Assembly (NCBI RefSeq): GCF_001654455.1
Contig: NZ_CP015772.1
Coordinates: forward strand, 1,488,001 to 1,552,000
Direction of reading: 5' to 3'
Length of the DNA: 64,000 bases
From: Niabella ginsenosidivorans
GTDB lineage: Bacteria > Bacteroidota > Bacteroidia > Chitinophagales > Chitinophagaceae
The notes under the pieces are model-generated. The model was not told the origin of the DNA. It saw only the letters and a list, made by a program, of their open reading frames with translations, and did not search any database. A program made the position numbers and the translations under genes. This document shows positions 49,006-59,732 of the stretch, piece by piece. Within the stretch, counting starts at the first letter, position 1. Each line of letters opens with the position of its first letter.

Positions 49006-50391
49006 ATGAACAGAACCATATATCCATCCACATTAGCGGGCAATATTTATGCACCGGCATCCAAAAGCTCTATGCAGCGTGCCTGTGCGGCAGCTTTGCT
49101 GTCAACAAAAAAAGCGATCATTACCAACCCCGGGCATAGTAATGATGATAAAGCGGCGCAGGGCATTATAAAAGCACTGGGCGCTGTAATTACTCTGGTT
49201 AATGATGAGACCATTGAAATAAACAGCTCCTTCCTGGATGATCCCGGTAACATCCGGTCAAAAGAAAACAGTGTCAATTGCGGGGAAAGTGGCTTAAGCA
49301 TCCGCATGTTTACCCCGGTAGTTGCCTTATGCAATAATGAAGTCACCATTAACGGGGAAGGCAGCCTGGTAACACGCCCTATGGATTTCTTTGACCAGGT
49401 ATTGCCGCAGCTGGGAGTGACCATCAGTTCCAACAGCGGTAAGCTGCCATTAAAAGTAAATGGTCCCTTACAGCCAAAAGATATTACTATTGACGGGTCT
49501 TTAAGCTCCCAGTTCTTAACCGGCCTGTTAATGGCTTTTTCTGTAGCGCCCATCGATCATCCGGTAACCATTCAGGTAAAGGATCTGAAAAGCAAACCTT
49601 ATATTGACCTTACCCTGGATGTAATGCAGCAATTCGGGATGAATGTTCCTGAAAATAAAAACTACGAAGCGTTTATATTTAAACCTGCGTCTCATCCCGA
49701 TAGCCATCAGAACTCAGATCTCAAGTCTCAGGTCTCGAATCTGAAATCTCAAATCAGTTATACCGTTGAAGGCGACTGGAGCGGGGGAGCGTTTTTATTG
49801 GTGGCGGGTGCTATAGCAGGCGATATCCGTGTAAGCGGCCTGCAGCAATCAAGCACACAGGCAGATAAAAAGATCCTGGAAGCATTGATGGCGGCCAATG
49901 CGGGCATTGCCATGGAGGCAAAGGGTATTAAGCTGCATGCGGCACCGTTAACGGCTTTTGAGTTTGACGCTACGGACTGTCCGGATCTGTTTCCACCCCT
50001 GGTAGCCTTAGCCGCCAATTGTAAAGGGGTTACCACTATAAAAGGGGTAAGCCGGTTAGCGCATAAGGAAAGCGACCGGGGGCTGACCTTGCAGCAGGAA
50101 TTTGGAAAAATGGGCATACAGGTGGAACTGGATGGCGATTGGATGCACGTTCATGGCGGTCCGGTCAAAGGGGCATTGGTACATTCCCGTCACGATCATC
50201 GTATTGCTATGGCCTGCGCAACAGCCGCCTTAAAGGCAAACGGGCCAACAACCATAGAAGAAGCCCAGGCAGTTAATAAATCATATCCCGATTTTTATGA
50301 GCATTTAAAACAACTGGGCGCAAAAGTTACGGGAGATCTGGAATATGGAGCTGCTTTAAAAGAAATCTATTCTGATAAAGAAAATAAATAA
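49006..50391 (+). CDS. aroA: 3-phosphoshikimate 1-carboxyvinyltransferase (EPSP synthase)
   Basis: Joins phosphoenolpyruvate to shikimate-3-phosphate. Motifs in the 461-residue frame: ASKSSMQRACAAALLS (residues about 17-32; usual SKS..HR replaced by SKSSMQR), VNCGESGLSIRMFTPV (usual NSGT.LR), SSQFLTGLLMAFSV, RLAHKESDRG and HDHRIAMACA. Residues about 228-251 are an Asp/Ser/Lys/Gln-rich insertion (SDLKSQVSNLKSQIS) encoded by a 7-bp-period repeat. The frame stays open, so the enzyme may tolerate the insert. Followed 6 bp later by aroC. Confidence 0.92.
   Translation: MNRTIYPSTLAGNIYAPASKSSMQRACAAALLSTKKAIITNPGHSNDDKAAQGIIKALGAVITLVNDETIEINSSFLDDPGNIRSKENSVNCGESGLSIRMFTPVVALCNNEVTINGEGSLVTRPMDFFDQVLPQLGVTISSNSGKLPLKVNGPLQPKDITIDGSLSSQFLTGLLMAFSVAPIDHPVTIQVKDLKSKPYIDLTLDVMQQFGMNVPENKNYEAFIFKPASHPDSHQNSDLKSQVSNLKSQISYTVEGDWSGGAFLLVAGAIAGDIRVSGLQQSSTQADKKILEALMAANAGIAMEAKGIKLHAAPLTAFEFDATDCPDLFPPLVALAANCKGVTTIKGVSRLAHKESDRGLTLQQEFGKMGIQVELDGDWMHVHGGPVKGALVHSRHDHRIAMACATAALKANGPTTIEEAQAVNKSYPDFYEHLKQLGAKVTGDLEYGAALKEIYSDKENK
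49711..49758 (+). repeat. Heptad repeat inserted in frame inside aroA
   Basis: Units AGTCTCA, GGTCTCG, AATCTGA, AATCTCA with a 7-bp period encode two copies of S-(D/N)-LKSQ-(V/I). The same kind of array occurs in intergenic positions elsewhere in the window. Confidence 0.65.
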
Positions 50392-50397
50392 GCGATT

Positions 50398-51312
50398 ATG
50401 AATGCATTTGGTCAGCTGTTCCGGGTACAGATCTTTGGGGAGTCACATGGAGAATGTGTAGGCGTTGTGCTGGATGGCCTGCCTGCCGGACTGGAAGTGC
50501 CGGTGGCAGATTTCCTGCCGGATATGGAGCGCCGGAAAGGCGGTACTCAAAAGGGGGCTACCCCAAGAAAGGAAGACGATATTCCCATTTTTAAAAGCGG
50601 TGTTTTTAACGGCAGAACAACCGGTTTCCCGGTAGTGATCTATTTTGAAAATAAGAACACCCGCAGCGGCGATTATGAAAAACTGCGCGATTTCCCGCGC
50701 CCCGGTCATGCAGATTTTGTGGCGCATAAGAAATTTGGCGGATATGAAGACTACAGGGGAGGAGGACATTTCAGTGCCCGCCTGACAACAGGGCTGGTAG
50801 CAGCAGGGGTGATTGCGAAGAAGCTGCTGAATTTGGCTGATAAGACCTCACCCCTTCCCGAACCATCGGGACCTCTCCCCGGGAGAGGGGAAGAGTCCAC
50901 TCCTGGTTATATGACCAGTACAGTAAATGAGTGGCGGATTTTATCTGATTTTGCTAAACAAAACAGAAAGAACGCAACAGAAGCAGAGGCGTTGCTATGG
51001 GAGGAGTTGCGGAACCGGAAAATAGAAAACTGTAAGTTCAGAAGACAGCATCCTGTTTCGGGGTATATTCCGGATTTTGTTTGTATTGAGAGAAAGTTAG
51101 TGATAGAAATCGATGGAGGATATCATAATAATGCAGAGCAACAGCAATATGACAATGTACGGACTGAATGGTTAGCGGAGTATGGTTACGGGTTAATAAG
51201 ATTTACAAACAATGAAGTATTACAGGAAAAAGAGCGCGTAGTAAGCCGCATTGCAGAAGCGCTTAAAAAAAGAGCACATCTGCAAAAAGCAGAATCTGCC
51301 CCCCCTCCTTAG
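50398..51312 (+). CDS. aroC: Chorismate synthase N-terminal half running into an inserted DUF559 endonuclease frame
   Basis: Residues 1 to about 147 are the N-terminal half of chorismate synthase: FGQLFRVQIFGESHGECVGV, RRKGGTQKGATPRKEDD, TRSGDYEKLRDFPRPGHADF and the DYRGGGHFSARLT block. The sequence then leaves AroC after AKKLLNLADK and continues in the same frame through proline-rich linker and a DUF559-type domain to a stop at 51310-51312. The C-terminal AroC half follows in another frame (51329-51883). The inserted length is 1 modulo 3, so the two halves cannot be joined without a frameshift or a base error. Six bp after aroA. Confidence 0.85.
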   Translation: MNAFGQLFRVQIFGESHGECVGVVLDGLPAGLEVPVADFLPDMERRKGGTQKGATPRKEDDIPIFKSGVFNGRTTGFPVVIYFENKNTRSGDYEKLRDFPRPGHADFVAHKKFGGYEDYRGGGHFSARLTTGLVAAGVIAKKLLNLADKTSPLPEPSGPLPGRGEESTPGYMTSTVNEWRILSDFAKQNRKNATEAEALLWEELRNRKIENCKFRRQHPVSGYIPDFVCIERKLVIEIDGGYHNNAEQQQYDNVRTEWLAEYGYGLIRFTNNEVLQEKERVVSRIAEALKKRAHLQKAESAPPP

Positions 51313-51331
51313 GAGGGGGTCGGGGGAGGTC
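50844..51331 (+). mobile_element. DUF559 cassette inserted in aroC, with inverted G/C-rich ends
   Basis: The left edge GACCTCACCCC (50844-50854) is matched by GGGGGAGGTC (51322-51331) in inverted orientation. Inside the left end are two palindromes (TTCCCGA/TCGGGA and CTCTCCCCGGGAGAG), and inside the right end CCCCCTCCTTAGGAGGGGG. AroC similarity stops and resumes at these edges. Exact boundaries and any target duplication need an uninterrupted relative. Confidence 0.65.
50911..51312 (+). CDS. DUF559 (Vsr/restriction-like) endonuclease-domain protein nested in aroC
   Basis: If translated on its own from the ATG at 50911 this gives 133 residues: MTSTVNEWRILSDFAKQN, ATEAEALLWEELRNRK, KFRRQHPVSGYIPDFVC, LVIEIDGGYHNN and GLIRFTNNEVLQ. 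All blocks of the DUF559 family are present, including the Asp and Glu-x-Asp-Gly residues of the restriction-endonuclease-like core. No start-site signal was identified, and it is in frame with the upstream aroC part, so it could also be made as a fusion. The family is related in fold to Vsr; the function of such stand-alone members is not established. Confidence 0.8.
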   Translation: MTSTVNEWRILSDFAKQNRKNATEAEALLWEELRNRKIENCKFRRQHPVSGYIPDFVCIERKLVIEIDGGYHNNAEQQQYDNVRTEWLAEYGYGLIRFTNNEVLQEKERVVSRIAEALKKRAHLQKAESAPPP

Positions 51332-51883
51332 TCCATTGAAGCAAAGATCATTGAAATAGGCGGCGATCCTGATCCTGAACAGGGATTGCAGAAAGCCATT
51401 GATGCCAAAGATTCCGTAGGCGGGCTGATCGAATGCAGGGTAAACGGGCTGCCTGTTGGCCTGGGAGAACCCTATTTTGATTCGGTGGAGTCTGTGCTGG
51501 CGCACCTGTTGTTTACCATTCCAGCTGTAAAAGGGGTGGAGTTTGGTGCCGGCTTTGCAGCGGCAAAGATGTTTGGCTCACAGCATAATGATGCTATAGA
51601 AAATACAGCCGGAAAGACGGTTACCAATAATGCCGGCGGAATTGTGGGGGGGATTACCAATGGCAACGAGCTGGTTTTTCGCATTGCCATTAAGCCCACC
51701 GCTTCTACGCCCAAACAGCAGCACAGCCTGAACTGGCAGACTGGTACCATGGAAGATTTTTCTGTAAAGGGCCGTCATGACCTTTGTGTAGCCTTGCGCG
51801 CACCGGTGATCGTTGAAGCGGTAACCGCCATTGCATTGGCCGATTTTATGATGCTTGCCGGGAAAATACCCCGCATTGTATAG
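51251..51883 (+). CDS. aroC: Chorismate synthase C-terminal half (separate frame)
   Basis: AroC similarity resumes at VSIEAKIIEIGG (51329) and is complete to the end: KDSVGGLIECRVNGLPVGLG, EPYFDSVESVLAHLLF, IPAVKGVEFGAGF, SQHNDAIENTAGKT, NAGGIVGGITNG and GRHDLCVALRAPVIVEAV. The only start upstream in this frame is a TTG at 51251 inside the DUF559 frame; no ATG lies before the conserved part. A +1 change near the C7 run at 51299-51305 or at the stop 51310-51312 would fuse it with the preceding frame. Confidence 0.85.
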   Translation: MQKRLKKEHICKKQNLPPLLRRGSGEVSIEAKIIEIGGDPDPEQGLQKAIDAKDSVGGLIECRVNGLPVGLGEPYFDSVESVLAHLLFTIPAVKGVEFGAGFAAAKMFGSQHNDAIENTAGKTVTNNAGGIVGGITNGNELVFRIAIKPTASTPKQQHSLNWQTGTMEDFSVKGRHDLCVALRAPVIVEAVTAIALADFMMLAGKIPRIV

Positions 51884-51930
51884 ATCCAAATTGTTGATAA
51901 CTACCTGTTTAATGTGCCTTAAAACCGGTT

Positions 51931-51958
51931 TTTGGCATGTTTTTTTATAGTAACTTTA
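51931..51958 (+). promoter_or_regulatory. Candidate promoter for the GlsB/YeaQ-like gene
   Basis: TTTG at 51931-51934 and TAACTTTA at 51951-51958 (one mismatch to TAnnTTTG) with a 16-bp spacer, 40 bp before the ATG. Confidence 0.3.
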
Positions 51959-51998
51959 AGTGTTGAGCTATTATTCACCTTATAAAAACTAAAAAACT

Positions 51999-52259
51999 AT
52001 GGGTATTTTATCTTGGATCATTTTTGGGCTCATTGCCGGCGCCATTGCCAAAGCGTTACACCCGGGTAAGGATCCCGGTGGATGGATCATTACCATCATT
52101 ATCGGTATTGCCGGCGCTTTTGTAGGCGGCTGGATCGGTAATATGATTGGCTGGGGCGAACCCAATAATTTTAGCATCAGAAGCTTTTTTCTTGCCGTTA
52201 TAGGAGCTGTTATTCTGTTATGGCTCTATAGTATGGCCACCAGGAACAAGGGCTCATAA
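51999..52259 (+). CDS. GlsB/YeaQ/YmgE-family small membrane protein
   Basis: An 86-residue inner-membrane protein with three hydrophobic helices and the Gly-rich family motif: WIIFGLIAGAIAKALHPGKD, GGWIITIIIGIAGAFVGGWI and a third helix near residues 62-78. The family (transglycosylase-associated, PF04226) is linked to general stress responses; the biochemical role is unknown. An intrinsic terminator follows 25 bp after the stop. Confidence 0.93.
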   Translation: MGILSWIIFGLIAGAIAKALHPGKDPGGWIITIIIGIAGAFVGGWIGNMIGWGEPNNFSIRSFFLAVIGAVILLWLYSMATRNKGS

Positions 52260-52311: not shown

Positions 52312-52792
52312 ATGCATATTAAATGCCACCGGGGCTGAATCTAAAAAGGTACCTGGTTGTCATATTGATACAATGAGGCAATGACAGGTATGCTTATTGT
52401 TCCTCAACCAGCTAAAGGTTTGTTCCTCCCCGGAGGGGAATATGGCAGAGATTCTTAATTCAGGCAGTATGGCCTTCGGAATAAATGTAGGTTCATTATC
52501 CCCCGCTGGCGGGGGCGGAACTTCGATTTTAAGGATAACACGAATGGGGGTGGGCTGGAGGGGATAAGGCTGTGATCCTTAATTCAGGAGAAATGGAAAA
52601 CCGGATAAACGCAATTGGTTTCCAGATTTTAGGAAAGCAATAAAAGAGTGGAGACAGAGTGGAAAGGATACTTTCTATTGGAAGGGGATAACAAAAAGAT
52701 TATCCCCCTTTTTACCTGCTGGTTTGTTGTACACTCCTTCTATTCCCCCGCCAGCGGGGGAGATTGTATTGTCATTTTACAGATCCGGAACG
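52312..52792. other. Non-coding region with G/C palindromes
   Basis: No gene is supported in these 480 bp. It contains TCCCCGGAGGGGA near 52436, CCCCCGCTGGCGGGGGC near 52501, a GGGGGTGGGCTGGAGGGGAT stretch near 52546, and CCCCCGCCAGCGGGGG near 52745. These G/C-rich pieces resemble the ends of the DUF559 cassette in aroC in style, though not in sequence. Confidence 0.45.
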
Positions 52793-53160
52793 GCTGTTTT
52801 GCCCTCCTGAACCGCTTTACAGTGGTTGGTAAACCCTTTAAAATGGGTGTGGCACCCCATCGTATACGTTATTCACTGCTCCGTACCATTAAAATAATGA
52901 TATGAAGCATTCCGGAACAGGAAAAAACCGGTTGGCTAACCACAACAACAGGGTTGGTAACCGCAATTTTGCCCTTCTGAACCGCTTTACAGCGGTTGGT
53001 AAACCCTTTAAACTGGATGTGGCAACCCATCCTATACGTTATGTACTGCTCCGTACCATTAAAATAATGATATGAAGCATTCCGGAACCGGAAAGAACCG
53101 GTTGGCTAACCGTAATAATGAGGTTGGCAACCGCTGTTTTGCCCTTCCAAACCGCCTTTT
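52793..53160. repeat. 170-bp tandem (satellite-like) repeat, two full copies plus part
   Basis: Unit starts at 52793, 52963 and 53133, each beginning GC(TG/AA)TTTTGCCC, so the period is 170 bp both times. Each full unit has the hairpin AACCGCTTTACAGYGGTT and the identical segment CTGCTCCGTACCATTAAAAT. The third copy breaks off after about 28 bp. No open frame is conserved between units. Confidence 0.8.
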
Positions 53161-53643: not shown

Positions 53644-53786
53644 AGTTATAATTTATTATAACCACAAAGCACACATAAATAGCTTTTGTGCGCAACATTT
53701 TAAGCCTGTAAAATACAAGGCCCTTTTTGTTTTTTACCGTGGTATTTTACGTATTTTTATAAATGAAATACAATTATATTAATGCT

Positions 53787-53794
53787 TAAATTTG
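53787..53794 (+). promoter_or_regulatory. Conserved TAAATTTG element at each XRE copy
   Basis: TAAATTTG followed by ACCT and then the ATG. The same block stands before the second and third copies (ATG at 54408 and 55027). The 4-nt distance implies transcripts that begin at or near the start codon. A -33 TTTG is not evident. Confidence 0.45.
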
Positions 53795-53798
53795 ACCT

Positions 53799-54236
53799 AT
53801 GACAAATACAGATGCCATGCAAAAAAAGATACACCAGGGCCATAATATAAAACGTTTCCGCGAAATGATGGGTATAAAACAGGATGCGCTGGCTGCTGAC
53901 CTGGGTGATGACTGGAACCAGCAAAAAATTTCACTGCTGGAGCAAAAAGAAACCATTGATGCGCCCCTGCTGCAACAGGTAGCAGAAGCCTTAAAACTGC
54001 CCGTTGAAGCCATAAAAAATTTTGATGAAGAACAGGCTATCGTTAATATCCAAACGAATTATGGCGGAACCAACACCAGTGCTAATCAAATCACTTATGA
54101 AAGTTGTACAATTAACCCTGTGGAAAAATGGCTGGAGGCTTTAGAGGAAAATAAAAAGCTGTATGAGCGTATGATCAAGGAAAAGGACGACATGATATAT
54201 ACCTTGCAAGCCATGCTTGAAAATATGAAGAAATAA
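53799..54236 (+). CDS. XRE-family helix-turn-helix protein, tandem copy 1
   Basis: A 145-residue regulator. Residues 12-66 form an XRE-type helix-turn-helix (NIKRFREMMGIKQDALAADL, QQKISLLEQKETIDAPLLQQ, VAEALKLPVEAIKNF). Residues about 83-106 are a variable centre (NIQTNYGGTNTSANQITYES). Residues 107-145 are an amphipathic, coiled-coil-like C-terminus (EKWLEALEENKKLYERMIKE). Copies 2 and 3 share the first and last parts almost exactly but differ in the centre. Possible targets include its own promoter and the divergent SymE-like gene. Confidence 0.88.
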   Translation: MTNTDAMQKKIHQGHNIKRFREMMGIKQDALAADLGDDWNQQKISLLEQKETIDAPLLQQVAEALKLPVEAIKNFDEEQAIVNIQTNYGGTNTSANQITYESCTINPVEKWLEALEENKKLYERMIKEKDDMIYTLQAMLENMKK

Positions 54237-54407
54237 GGATGTGGGAATGCAGCGGCCGGAAATGGGCCTGTACTTGTGGCAGATCTGCCCGGCCGGTAAA
54301 TTTTTTTGATGATTTTTTCTTTTCTTTCCTCCGTGGATATTGCATTGGATAACACCTGACAGCGGTAAAAAAGAAAAATACAATTTATTAATACTTAAAT
54401 TTGACCT

Positions 54408-54854
54408 ATGACAAATACAGATGCCATGCAAAAAAAGATACACCAGGGCCATAACATAAAACGCTTCCGCGAAATGCTGGGCATAAAGCAGGATGCGCTG
54501 GCTGCTGACCTGGGCGATGACTGGAACCAGCAAAAAATTTCACTGCTGGAGCAAAAGGAAACTATTGATGCGCCCCTGCTGCAACAGGTAGCAGAAGCCT
54601 TAAAATTGCCCGTTGAAGCCATAAAAAATTTTGATGAAGAGCAGGCAATTCAATTTATTTCTAATACAATCAACAATAATGATAATGCGGTAATGCACGG
54701 CCCGTCATTATATAGCTATTGTCCTACGTTTAATCCTATTGAAAAATGGCTGGAAGCTTTAGAGGAAAATAAAAAGCTGTATGAGCGTATGATCAAGGAA
54801 AAGGACGACATGATATATACCTTGCAAGCCATGCTTGAAAATATGAAGAAATAA
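54408..54854 (+). CDS. XRE-family helix-turn-helix protein, tandem copy 2
   Basis: A 148-residue paralogue of copy 1, identical or nearly so in residues 1-80 (single change Met to Leu at MMG/MLG) and in the last 40. The centre, residues about 81-108, reads QFISNTINNNDNAVMHG and PSLYSYCPTFNP, three residues longer than in copy 1. It has its own TAAATTTG element at the same distance from the ATG. Confidence 0.88.
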   Translation: MTNTDAMQKKIHQGHNIKRFREMLGIKQDALAADLGDDWNQQKISLLEQKETIDAPLLQQVAEALKLPVEAIKNFDEEQAIQFISNTINNNDNAVMHGPSLYSYCPTFNPIEKWLEALEENKKLYERMIKEKDDMIYTLQAMLENMKK

Positions 54855-55026
54855 GGATGTGGGAATGCAGCGGCCGGAGATGGGCCTGTACGTGCGGCAG
54901 ATCTGCCCGGCCGGTAAATTTTTTTGATGATTTTTTTCTTTTCTTTCCTCAGTGGATATTGCATTGGATAACACCTGACAGCGGCAAAAAAGAAAAATAC
55001 AATTTATTAATGCTTAAATTTGACCT

Positions 55027-55467
55027 ATGACAAATACAGATGCCATGCAAAAAAAGATACACCAGGGCCATAACATAAAACGTTTCCGCGAAATGCTGGG
55101 CATAAAGCAGGATGCGCTGGCTGCTGACCTGGGCGATGACTGGAACCAGCAAAAAATTTCACTGCTGGAGCAAAAAGAAACTATTGATGCGCCCCTGCTG
55201 CAACAGGTAGCAGAAGCCTTAAAATTGCCCGTTGAAGCCATAAAAAATTTTGATGAAGATCAGGCAATTAACATAATCTCGAATACAGTTAACAATAATG
55301 ATAATGCCAACGGGAATACTTTATTTAGCTACTATCCAACCATTAATCCCATTGAAAAATGGCTGGAAGCTTTAGAGGAAAATAAAAAGCTGTATGAGCG
55401 TATGATCAAGGAGAAGGATGATATGATATACACCCTGCAAGCTATGCTTGAGAATATGAAAAAATAA
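55027..55467 (+). CDS. XRE-family helix-turn-helix protein, tandem copy 3
   Basis: A 146-residue paralogue. The N-terminal DNA-binding half equals copy 2, except Glu to Asp in NFDEDQ. The centre is NIISNTVNNNDNANGN then TLFSYYPTINP, close to copy 2 but with different length. The C-terminal helix is identical at the protein level, but its last codons carry silent changes (for example GAT for GAC), showing selection on the protein. Confidence 0.88.
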   Translation: MTNTDAMQKKIHQGHNIKRFREMLGIKQDALAADLGDDWNQQKISLLEQKETIDAPLLQQVAEALKLPVEAIKNFDEDQAINIISNTVNNNDNANGNTLFSYYPTINPIEKWLEALEENKKLYERMIKEKDDMIYTLQAMLENMKK

Positions 55468-55761
55468 GAATGGATTGATGGCAGCGGCTGCATCCATTGG
55501 TCTTTACCTATAATTTTTATCTTTTACGTCCTCCGCATATGTTGCGTTCTGAAGCTTCAGAATAGTGGTATGTTTGCATTTTTCAATAGGCCGCCCTTTA
55601 CAGGGCTCCATTCCGGATAAGGCATTTATTTTACCAACGGGTTGCCCTTACAGGGCTGTCTCATAAGGGGAATATGTCGGTAAATAGAGGCTATCAGGTG
55701 CTCCTTGAGTCTGCCTCAGCGAAGTGCCCCGCTGTAATATGGAAAGGTTAAACAACTGCTG
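55468..55761. repeat. Non-coding gap with GCCCTTTACAGGGC palindromes
   Basis: Two short palindromes, GCCCTTTACAGGGC at 55593-55606 and GCCCTTACAGGGC at 55644-55656, 51 bp apart. No gene is supported. It separates the XRE array from the converging purU gene. Confidence 0.55.
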
Positions 55762-58269: not shown

Positions 58270-59235
58270 AGAATATTGCGGTGCGCTGCACCTTTGTTGG
58301 AATATGGAATCCTGTTCTATAGAGATGACGCCGCTCTGCGGCAACATTGTCATGCAGTTCCGGTGCAGCGCACCGGGAAATTATTAGGTTCCGGAGTATA
58401 GTAATTATAGAGCCGCGGCGCTGCGAAACAGGATGATGCGGAATGTTTGAATATTTTCTGAGTTTTTACAAATCCGGCCCCTTTATTGAAAATGGAATAT
58501 CGTTCCGCGAAGATAGTACCGCTCTGCGGTAATATCGTTATGAAGGTACCGGTGCAGCGCACCGGAAGATCATTAGCTGCTGAAGCAGAATAGTTATAGA
58601 GCCGCAGCGCGGCGAAACAGGATAATGTGGGATGTTTGAATATTTTCTTGATATTTATCAATCCGGCATCTTTGTTGAAAATGGAATATCGTACCGAAAG
58701 ATCGTGTTGCCCTGTGGTAATATCGTTATGAAGGTACCGGTGCAGCGCACCGGGAAATTATTAGGTTCCGGAGTATAGCAAATTATAGAGCCGCGGCTGC
58801 GAAACAGGATGATGTGGAATGTCTGAATATTTCCTGAGTTTTTACAAATCCGGCATCTTTGTTGAAAATGGAATATCGTACCGAAAGATCGTGTTGCCCT
58901 GTGGTAATATCGTTATGAAGGTACCGGTGCAGCGCACCGGGAAATTATTAGGTTCCGGAGTATAGCAAATTATAGAGCCGCAACGCGGCGAAACAGGATA
59001 ATGAGGGATGTTTGAATATTTTTCCTGAGTTTTTGTAAATCCGGCCCCTTTATTGAAAATGGAATATCGTTCCGCGAAGATAGTACCGCTCTGCGGTAAT
59101 ATCGTTATGAAGGTACCGGTGCAGCGCACCGGAAGATCATTAGCTGCTGAAGCAGAATAGTTATAGAGCCGCAGCGCGGCGAAACAGGATAATGCGGAAT
59201 ATTTGAATATGTTCCTGAGTTTTTGTAAATTTAAC
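58270..59235. repeat. Five-copy ~188-bp palindromic repeat array upstream of a Y1 transposase
   Basis: The palindrome CCGGTGCAGCGCACCGG occurs at 58360, 58549, 58737, 58924 and 59116, spaced 189, 188, 187 and 192 bp. Each unit also has a CCGC..GCGG element before it and GAGCCGC..GCGGCG or a variant after it. Two unit types alternate (A-B-A-A-B): A has TTAGGTTCCGGAGTATAG, B has TTAGCTGCTGAAGCAGAATA. The array ends about 20 bp before the transposase start. Reading frames on the minus strand across it are byproducts of the repeat. Confidence 0.88.
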
Positions 59236-59255
59236 GGTAACCTAAATATATTGCT

Positions 59256-59732
59256 ATGGCAAACACCTATACACAATGTTATCTGCATTTGGTTTTCTCT
59301 CCTAAAAACCGGGAAGCTTTAATTGCAAAAGAATGGAAAACGAATCTGGAAAAATACATTACCGGTATTGTTCAGAACCATAAGCACAAACTCCTGGCAA
59401 TTGGAGCAATGCCGGACCACATCCACATTTTTATCGGGTATAATGTAAACCAGTTGATCCCTGACCTGGTAGAAGCCATTAAAACATCTTCCAACGCCTG
59501 GGTCAAACAAAACAGATTTACAAGGTACAAATTTGAATGGCAACGCGGATACGGGGCCTTTACCCATTCCCATTCCCAGGTAGCTACACTGGTAAAATAT
59601 GTTCTCTCACAGGAAGAACATCATAAAAGGAAAAACTTTCGGGAAGAGTACCTGGGTCTTTTACATGAATATCAGATAGCTTATAAGAACGAATATCTTT
59701 TTGACTTTTTTGAGGACACGGGCAGTTTCTAA
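59256..59732 (+). CDS. IS200/IS605-type (RAYT-like) Y1 transposase
   Basis: A 158-residue HUH single-strand transposase: YLHLVFSPKNREALI near the start, the HUH metal-binding motif in GAMPDHIHIFIG (residues about 48-59), WQRGYGAFTHSHSQ, and the nucleophile tyrosine in LVKYVLSQEEHHKRK near residue 115. No accessory TnpB follows. The position immediately downstream of a palindromic repeat array suggests a REP-associated tyrosine transposase acting on those palindromes. Confidence 0.9.
   Translation: MANTYTQCYLHLVFSPKNREALIAKEWKTNLEKYITGIVQNHKHKLLAIGAMPDHIHIFIGYNVNQLIPDLVEAIKTSSNAWVKQNRFTRYKFEWQRGYGAFTHSHSQVATLVKYVLSQEEHHKRKNFREEYLGLLHEYQIAYKNEYLFDFFEDTGSF

Follow-up and report, generated by a model that had tools for sequence, protein, structure and literature searches.

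The window, by which we mean the whole 64,000-nucleotide stretch of Niabella ginsenosidivorans DNA analysed here, contains the sole aroC gene of a 5.63-Mb genome (5,627,734 bases in one contig, completeness 99.98), and this gene is split by a cassette of 484 nucleotides (Table 1). The sequence-only reading had described the main elements of this arrangement correctly. Similarity to AroC is interrupted after the AKKLLNLADK motif, the two parts of the enzyme lie in two open reading frames around the insert, and a complete DUF559 frame is contained in the first of these. The second, which carries the C-terminal part, spans positions 51251-51883 and is listed from a TTG codon at 51251. The short inverted ends and palindromes noticed earlier are also present, as a terminal inverted repeat, ACCTC (50845-50849) and GAGGT (51326-51330), and two hairpins. 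The edges of the cassette were set by eye, by comparison with the empty aroC genes of genus members (for example, L041 and L037) and with 13 filled aroC genes; its length is 1 modulo 3, as had been stated, and its right edge could shift by a few bases.

Table 1. Layout of the interrupted aroC gene (positions in the window)
Feature	Position	Strand	Basis
AroC N-terminal part, through ...AKKLLNLADK	50398..50844	+	PF01264 positions 1-136
ORF 1, AroC N-terminal part plus DUF559, 304 aa, TAG stop inside right-end palindrome	50398..51312	+	ORF list
Inserted cassette, 484 nt, right edge +/- few bases	50845..51328	+	by-eye comparison with empty and filled aroC
Left end: ACCTCACCCC and hairpin CCTCTCC..GGAGAGG (50872-50888), translated TSPLPEPSGPLPGRGEE	50845..50895	+	
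DUF559 (PF04480) nuclease domain, in the frame of the AroC N-terminal part	50944..51264	+	profile match, E 1.4e-35; conserved residues
Right end: C7 run, hairpin CCCCTCCTTAGGAGGGG (51302-51318), terminal GAGGT	51299..51330	+	
AroC C-terminal part, second frame	51329..51883	+	PF01264 positions 174-327

Pfam positions 137-173 are absent from the split AroC and likewise from most uninterrupted AroC proteins of the family, indicating that little or no host sequence was lost; for Pfam positions 1-327, aroC spans about 940 nucleotides in this family and about 1030 in the order's other families. A by-eye comparison of filled and empty aroC genes showed no target-site duplication, and a few extra codons were found beside several of the inserts. 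Within this single-contig genome, nothing matched aroC beyond the two parts of the split gene, so that the option of a knock-out backed by another aroC fails. Searches of the same genome by DNA and with the DUF559 profile detected no further copies of the cassette, which is the only DUF559 match.

Other features of the window are recorded here as observations in their own right. Directly upstream, the aroA-like frame contains an in-frame low-complexity stretch of short repeats (SDLKSQVSNLKSQIS) at 49697-49760, which may be an in-frame insert of another, unrelated kind. Downstream of aroC lie CCCCCGC..GCGGGGG palindromes at 52500 and 52745, direct repeats of 170 nucleotides at 52789-53158, and three tandem copies at 53689-55554 that are 75-96% alike over 300 nucleotides, are spaced by about 610 nucleotides and contain open reading frames read as helix-turn-helix-looking. 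The only Y1_Tnp match of the genome (59268-59612) is found beside an array of repeats of about 187 nucleotides with GGTGCAGCGCACC palindromes (58273-59732).

The two aroC frames meet in the run of C residues at 51299-51305, inside the right-end palindrome. The DUF559 frame ends in ...AESAPPP followed by the stop codon, and the frame of the C-terminal part reads ...PPLLRRGSGEVSIEAK (PPLLRRGSGEV-SIEAK); an insert ending in ...GEV in the AroC frame is common to the window and 11 of 13 filled relatives. A true knock-out of aroC by mobile insertion would agree with the failure of the two frames to join in a genome that lacks a second aroC, and with the N-terminal part, in which the window differs at 3 of 121 genus-invariant columns, compared with 0-2 in eight of nine relatives. 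Past the break, however, all 130 columns of the C-terminal part that are invariant in nine genus members are kept, and the window gene differs from those of genus members by a dN of 0.03-0.12 against a dS of at least 1.2; such values would not be expected of a gene long dead, with dN far below dS. Furthermore, directly upstream lie three open frames, interpreted as DAHP synthase, aroB and aroA, and the aroC frame runs through the insert in 13 relatives. We therefore regard a knock-out as rather unlikely. The frame break in this strain could be an assembly error in the C-run, a recent lesion or a site of bypass by slippage. The window contains three C/G runs of seven, and the G7 run at 51646 falls within open AroC, so that such runs are not miscalled throughout, which does not settle the question of the C7 run. 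Two members of the genus with less complete genomes (G003 and G012) have an aroC that is broken elsewhere in the gene, so broken frames do occur in such genes of the set.

The first other carrier that we met, among 59 genomes searched, was a genome of another genus (G035), where aroC is split at the same place and encoded in a single frame of 499 aa. The cassette query matched in 176 of 394 genomes of the family; our family sample, which comprises 30 loci and 79 further places taken from part of the ranked matches, favours close relatives of the insert. Among the 377 family genomes (of 394) with an aroC match, at least 14 have DUF559 in aroC, all at the same AroC loop; a handful of further genomes that gave two or three aroC matches lie outside this count. 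The filling of the same site in at least 13 other genomes is more than chance. In 13 of the 14 filled genes the frame of the insert is continuous into both flanks, the window being the exception; in one of these 13, L062 of genome G355, the N-terminal part of AroC leaves the frame further upstream. Twenty further aroC loci were fetched for kinship or odd length. By eye, five of them (L169, L170, L172, L173 and L176) have short in-frame remnants of the ends, without the nuclease, at the aroC site, and two of the five scarred genes are sisters of filled ones; a few others of the 20 have longer loops of unclear origin. One aroC match has an internal TAA stop (G311:C99:10651-11682).

Inteins and self-splicing introns, either of which would remove the insert, typically look like this, with a nuclease lying inside a conserved gene. 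The relatives, however, have continuous open frames in which the junction residues vary; no Hint or intein family of Pfam was detected in the open reading frames of the window (E to 0.001) or in eight fusions from relatives (E to 0.01), and no Rfam match was obtained over positions 50300-52000 at E up to 1. Such splicing is extremely improbable, and the RNA-level removal that had been among the earlier options is unsupported, given frames that read straight through the insert and the lack of an Rfam match in this region. Among those options, a domain insertion with a frame problem in this strain fits best.

Insertions of this kind extend well beyond aroC. After a duplicate locus had been dropped, the family sample contained 113 DUF559 domains, 106 in host-gene loci and 7 stand-alone; 31 of the 110 DUF559-bearing frames touch the end of a locus. 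Hosts, which were grouped by their flanks and named with NCBIfam for 20 representatives, are leuS (29 domains at site A and 14 at site B), aroC (14), metH (13), cinA and metG (8 each), a DEXH helicase and adenine deaminase (ade; 4 each), icmF (3), a tryptophan-dioxygenase-like gene, miaB, an acetate-CoA ligase (acs) and a peptidase-like gene (2 each), and recQ (1). One representative, L148, counted as stand-alone, received a DUF559 name only. Each of the aroC, metG, cinA, ade, helicase and main metH groups has a single insertion column, or nearly so; the column falls in two ranges in leuS and in two places in the small metH-a group (3 members). Sites A and B of leuS are both filled in three genes (L082, L090 and L140), and L252 has two DUF559 domains in one metH-like frame. 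A stand-alone DUF559 lies between frames read as trpB-like and trpA-like in L138, L143 and L153, with hairpins adjoining it in L138 and L143.

A scan of GTDB yielded 585 confirmed loci, of which 80 named ones, ranked by likeness to this insert, were kept. DUF559 is embedded in 58 of these (a single frame with at least 80 residues preceding the domain and more than 50 following it), stand-alone in 11 and joined to host sequence on a single side in 11; seven of the 80, six of them among the 58, duplicate domains already in the family set exactly. Because these samples are ranked by similarity to the insert, the embedded share is biased upward. Further hosts include recG, ileS, valS, a RecB-like helicase, an aminotransferase and an alpha-xylosidase-like enzyme; an HsdM-like host in Mariprofundus may be an ordinary fusion, and L228 received no host name at E 1e-30. 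In a search of 395 genomes drawn from the phylum, 179 had matches; the matches listed include long frames of about 800-1480 aa as well as short ones of about 120-170 aa. These loci show that a nuclease domain is recurrently inserted in frame into housekeeping genes, mostly at fixed sites and often with palindromic ends. The sequence-only reading, which saw the insertion in one gene only, had taken a second complete aroC together with a lack of other cassette copies as the sign of a simple disrupted gene; other copies are lacking within this genome and related ones abound in relatives, so the case does not reduce to that. In the accessible portions of the DUF559 literature (PMC12308824, PMC12907096, PMC9403480), with subscription papers and preprints outside this scope, no in-frame DUF559 insertions are described.

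The inserted domain is under purifying selection, with a median dN/dS of 0.145 and a maximum of 0.25 over 49 pairs that share a site, are not independent of one another and have a dS below 2. In 32 domains, R41, E48, E88, D90 and H94 are invariant and D77 is nearly so; we take these to be the catalytic residues. Profile matches were obtained to PDB entries 3hrl (4.8e-32) and 3r3p (5.5e-6), the latter being, by its PDB title, the catalytic domain of the homing endonuclease I-Bth0305I, and Foldseek returned the same two entries (3hrl 1.7e-6, 3r3p 1.6e-3), ranked after chorismate synthases. By both fold and sequence, the DUF559 domain belongs with the EDxHD homing endonuclease I-Bth0305I; one study assigns a DUF559 gene to the EDxHD homing family (PMC9403480).

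The distribution of the insert is patchy. An AroC tree was built for 53 proteins, with empty relatives of filled genes deliberately included and L032 dropped. On it, the presence of DUF559 requires 11 changes, at least 10 of them forced by well-supported branches, and its clustering does not clearly exceed that of shuffled labels, of which 82 in 500 gave a count as low. The AroC nearest to that of the window (G014) is empty, and so are eight of the nine members of the well-supported clade in which the latter falls, which makes a gain here the simpler reading. The element in this strain thus looks like a gain within the genus, judging from a tree on which parsimony cannot separate gain from loss. 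The DUF559 tree (132 columns, 51 of 110 forks open) gives 27 site changes, compared with 77.9 for shuffled labels and a minimum possible of 15. The nucleases are strongly clustered by site, yet the copies from aroC, leuS and helicase genes are mixed, which suggests transfers between genes. In one aroC pair, L059/L064, picked after the dS table had been inspected, identity at silent sites is 95/109 in the insert versus 202/295 in the host (p 0.0001). Since the dS of DUF559 is below that of the host in many pairs, the argument that the insert is younger than the host is weakened, and we treat this contrast as supporting, not decisive; a similar inspection of two helicase pairs revealed no sharp step. 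The earlier guess at a homing-type element, the part of the previous interpretation that stands whereas the second aroC and RNA removal do not, is supported by the relatives through the shared site, the patchy presence, the conserved nuclease residues and the homing-endonuclease fold.

In many aroC loci, the left end of the cassette follows the pattern ACCTCACCCC-(T/C)AACCCCTCTCC-loop-GGAGAGGGG and the right end the pattern CCCTCTCC-loop-GGAGAGGG...GGAGGGTGAGGT; in the aroC relatives, these ends are translated into stretches rich in Pro, Ser, Glu and Gly. RNA folding of the two cassette ends was not better than that of shuffles (z about -1.1). An AF2 model of the fused AroC L054, built with 49 alignment rows (mean pLDDT 76, pTM 0.65), superseded a model with only 13 rows (pLDDT 58). 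In it, the stretches flanking the nuclease (162-179 and 305-316) have pLDDT below 50, as fits flexible linkers in the prediction.

Perfect 8-bp GC-rich hairpins occur in 116 of 226 DUF559 flanks, compared with 9 of 212 control segments. Forty-two of the 113 domains have a hairpin on both sides, namely, 18 of 29 at leuS site A, 9 of 14 at leuS site B, 6 of 14 in aroC, 3 of 4 in the helicase, 2 of 10 in the main metH group and 4 in others. Hairpins are absent from both flanks in six of the 15 host groups, which hold 27 of the 106 domains: cinA (0/8), metG (0/8), ade (0/4), metH-a, the dioxygenase-like group and acs. These six lie near each other in the DUF559 tree. Their existence points to possibly two classes, the hairpin-less inserts being ones that may be older or of a different class. 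The same six groups would be in keeping with a domesticated domain, useful to the host enzyme or the cell and inherited vertically with frequent loss, as would the purifying selection on DUF559 and the closeness of several aroC nuclease groups on the AroC tree as well. We nevertheless find domestication improbable, and slightly more so than a knock-out: presence is patchy, with empty relatives in the same genus, the hosts have no evident function in common, and related nucleases reside in unrelated genes.

Palindromes could themselves drive the movement, with a REP- or RPE-like element moved in trans, for example by a Y1 transposase, and DUF559 acting as a passenger or helper. Palindromic ends are indeed common to the aroC, leuS and helicase cassettes, and they recur at some DUF559 genes that stand alone and as solo copies in this genome; scars without DUF559 exist, and the single Y1_Tnp match of the genome is about 8 kb away. 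However, the Y1 gene adjoins a different palindrome family, GGTGCAGCGCACC, and the mostly fixed sites per gene, together with nucleases clustered by site, look like homing and not like scattered transposition. Moreover, only two solo palindromes of the searched pattern are found elsewhere in this genome; one of these (L260) is a close copy of the left end of the cassette (AACCTCACCCCAGCCCCTCTCCTAAAGGAGAGGGG), with no frame longer than 100 aa across it. On balance, we consider movement driven by the palindromes unlikely.

The reading that we favour, and hold to be probable, is that of a selfish, homing-type nuclease element residing in protein-coding genes and not removed by splicing. With less assurance, we lean towards a wider proposal, namely, a Bacteroidota-wide class of unspliced, protein-embedded homing elements in which palindromic ends serve both as mobility signal and as linkers and repeated entry and exit leave in-frame scars. 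We infer cleavage and homing: the nuclease would cut the empty allele, and repair would copy the cassette in. Now and then, the cassette would move to another gene. The ends, staying open in the reading frame, would become linkers that let the host enzyme and the nuclease fold apart, and the translated product would remain unspliced, with the insert kept in a tolerant loop. Flexible linkers would keep the invaded enzyme working and so permit survival in an essential gene without an intron or intein. Entry and exit would recur at the same permissive loops, in aminoacyl-tRNA ligases, AroC, MetH and helicases among others, and the scars would lengthen these loops.

The presence of homing nucleases in essential genes is usually explained by a self-splicing intron or an intein that hides them. 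The elements described here appear to do without splicing and to be tolerated as an extra domain, which would explain the additional DUF559 domain in many Bacteroidota housekeeping enzymes. If true, they represent a route by which aminoacyl-tRNA ligases and similar enzymes could have acquired inserted domains, provide a natural catalogue of insertion-tolerant loops and reveal a nuclease family with possible site specificity.

Several known systems resemble these elements in part. Inteins with homing endonucleases place a nuclease in frame in conserved proteins, sometimes at several sites per gene, and the DUF559 elements are similar in both respects; they differ in that no protein-splicing domain was found here and the insert would stay in the product. 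REP elements and REP-associated tyrosine transposases combine palindromes around or beside a nuclease gene with solo palindromes elsewhere, whereas the nuclease here is DUF559, not Y1, and the elements are inside genes, in frame. With EDxHD homing endonucleases such as I-Bth0305I, the inserts share the nuclease superfamily, nesting in conserved genes and patchy presence. I-Bth0305I comes from a mobile intron, according to its PDB molecule name, and is characterized in a review as a long multi-domain enzyme (PMC3943268); in contrast, no intron or intein was found here, and only a nuclease of about 130 aa is translated with the host enzyme. Rickettsia palindromic elements, as described in a review, consist of palindromic DNA of about 150 bp that lies in frame in unrelated protein genes and encodes a conserved peptide (PMC10969869). 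The likeness in being palindromic, in frame and in unrelated genes holds for the aroC, leuS and helicase groups and not for the six hairpin-less groups; compared with the roughly 150 bp of the Rickettsia elements, the insert described here has 484 nucleotides and carries a nuclease, and such inserts occupy mostly fixed sites per gene in hosts that are mainly Bacteroidota. Our tests place the element in neither the intein nor the Rickettsia family; by analogy, it would work like the homing half of an intein combined with a Rickettsia palindromic element.
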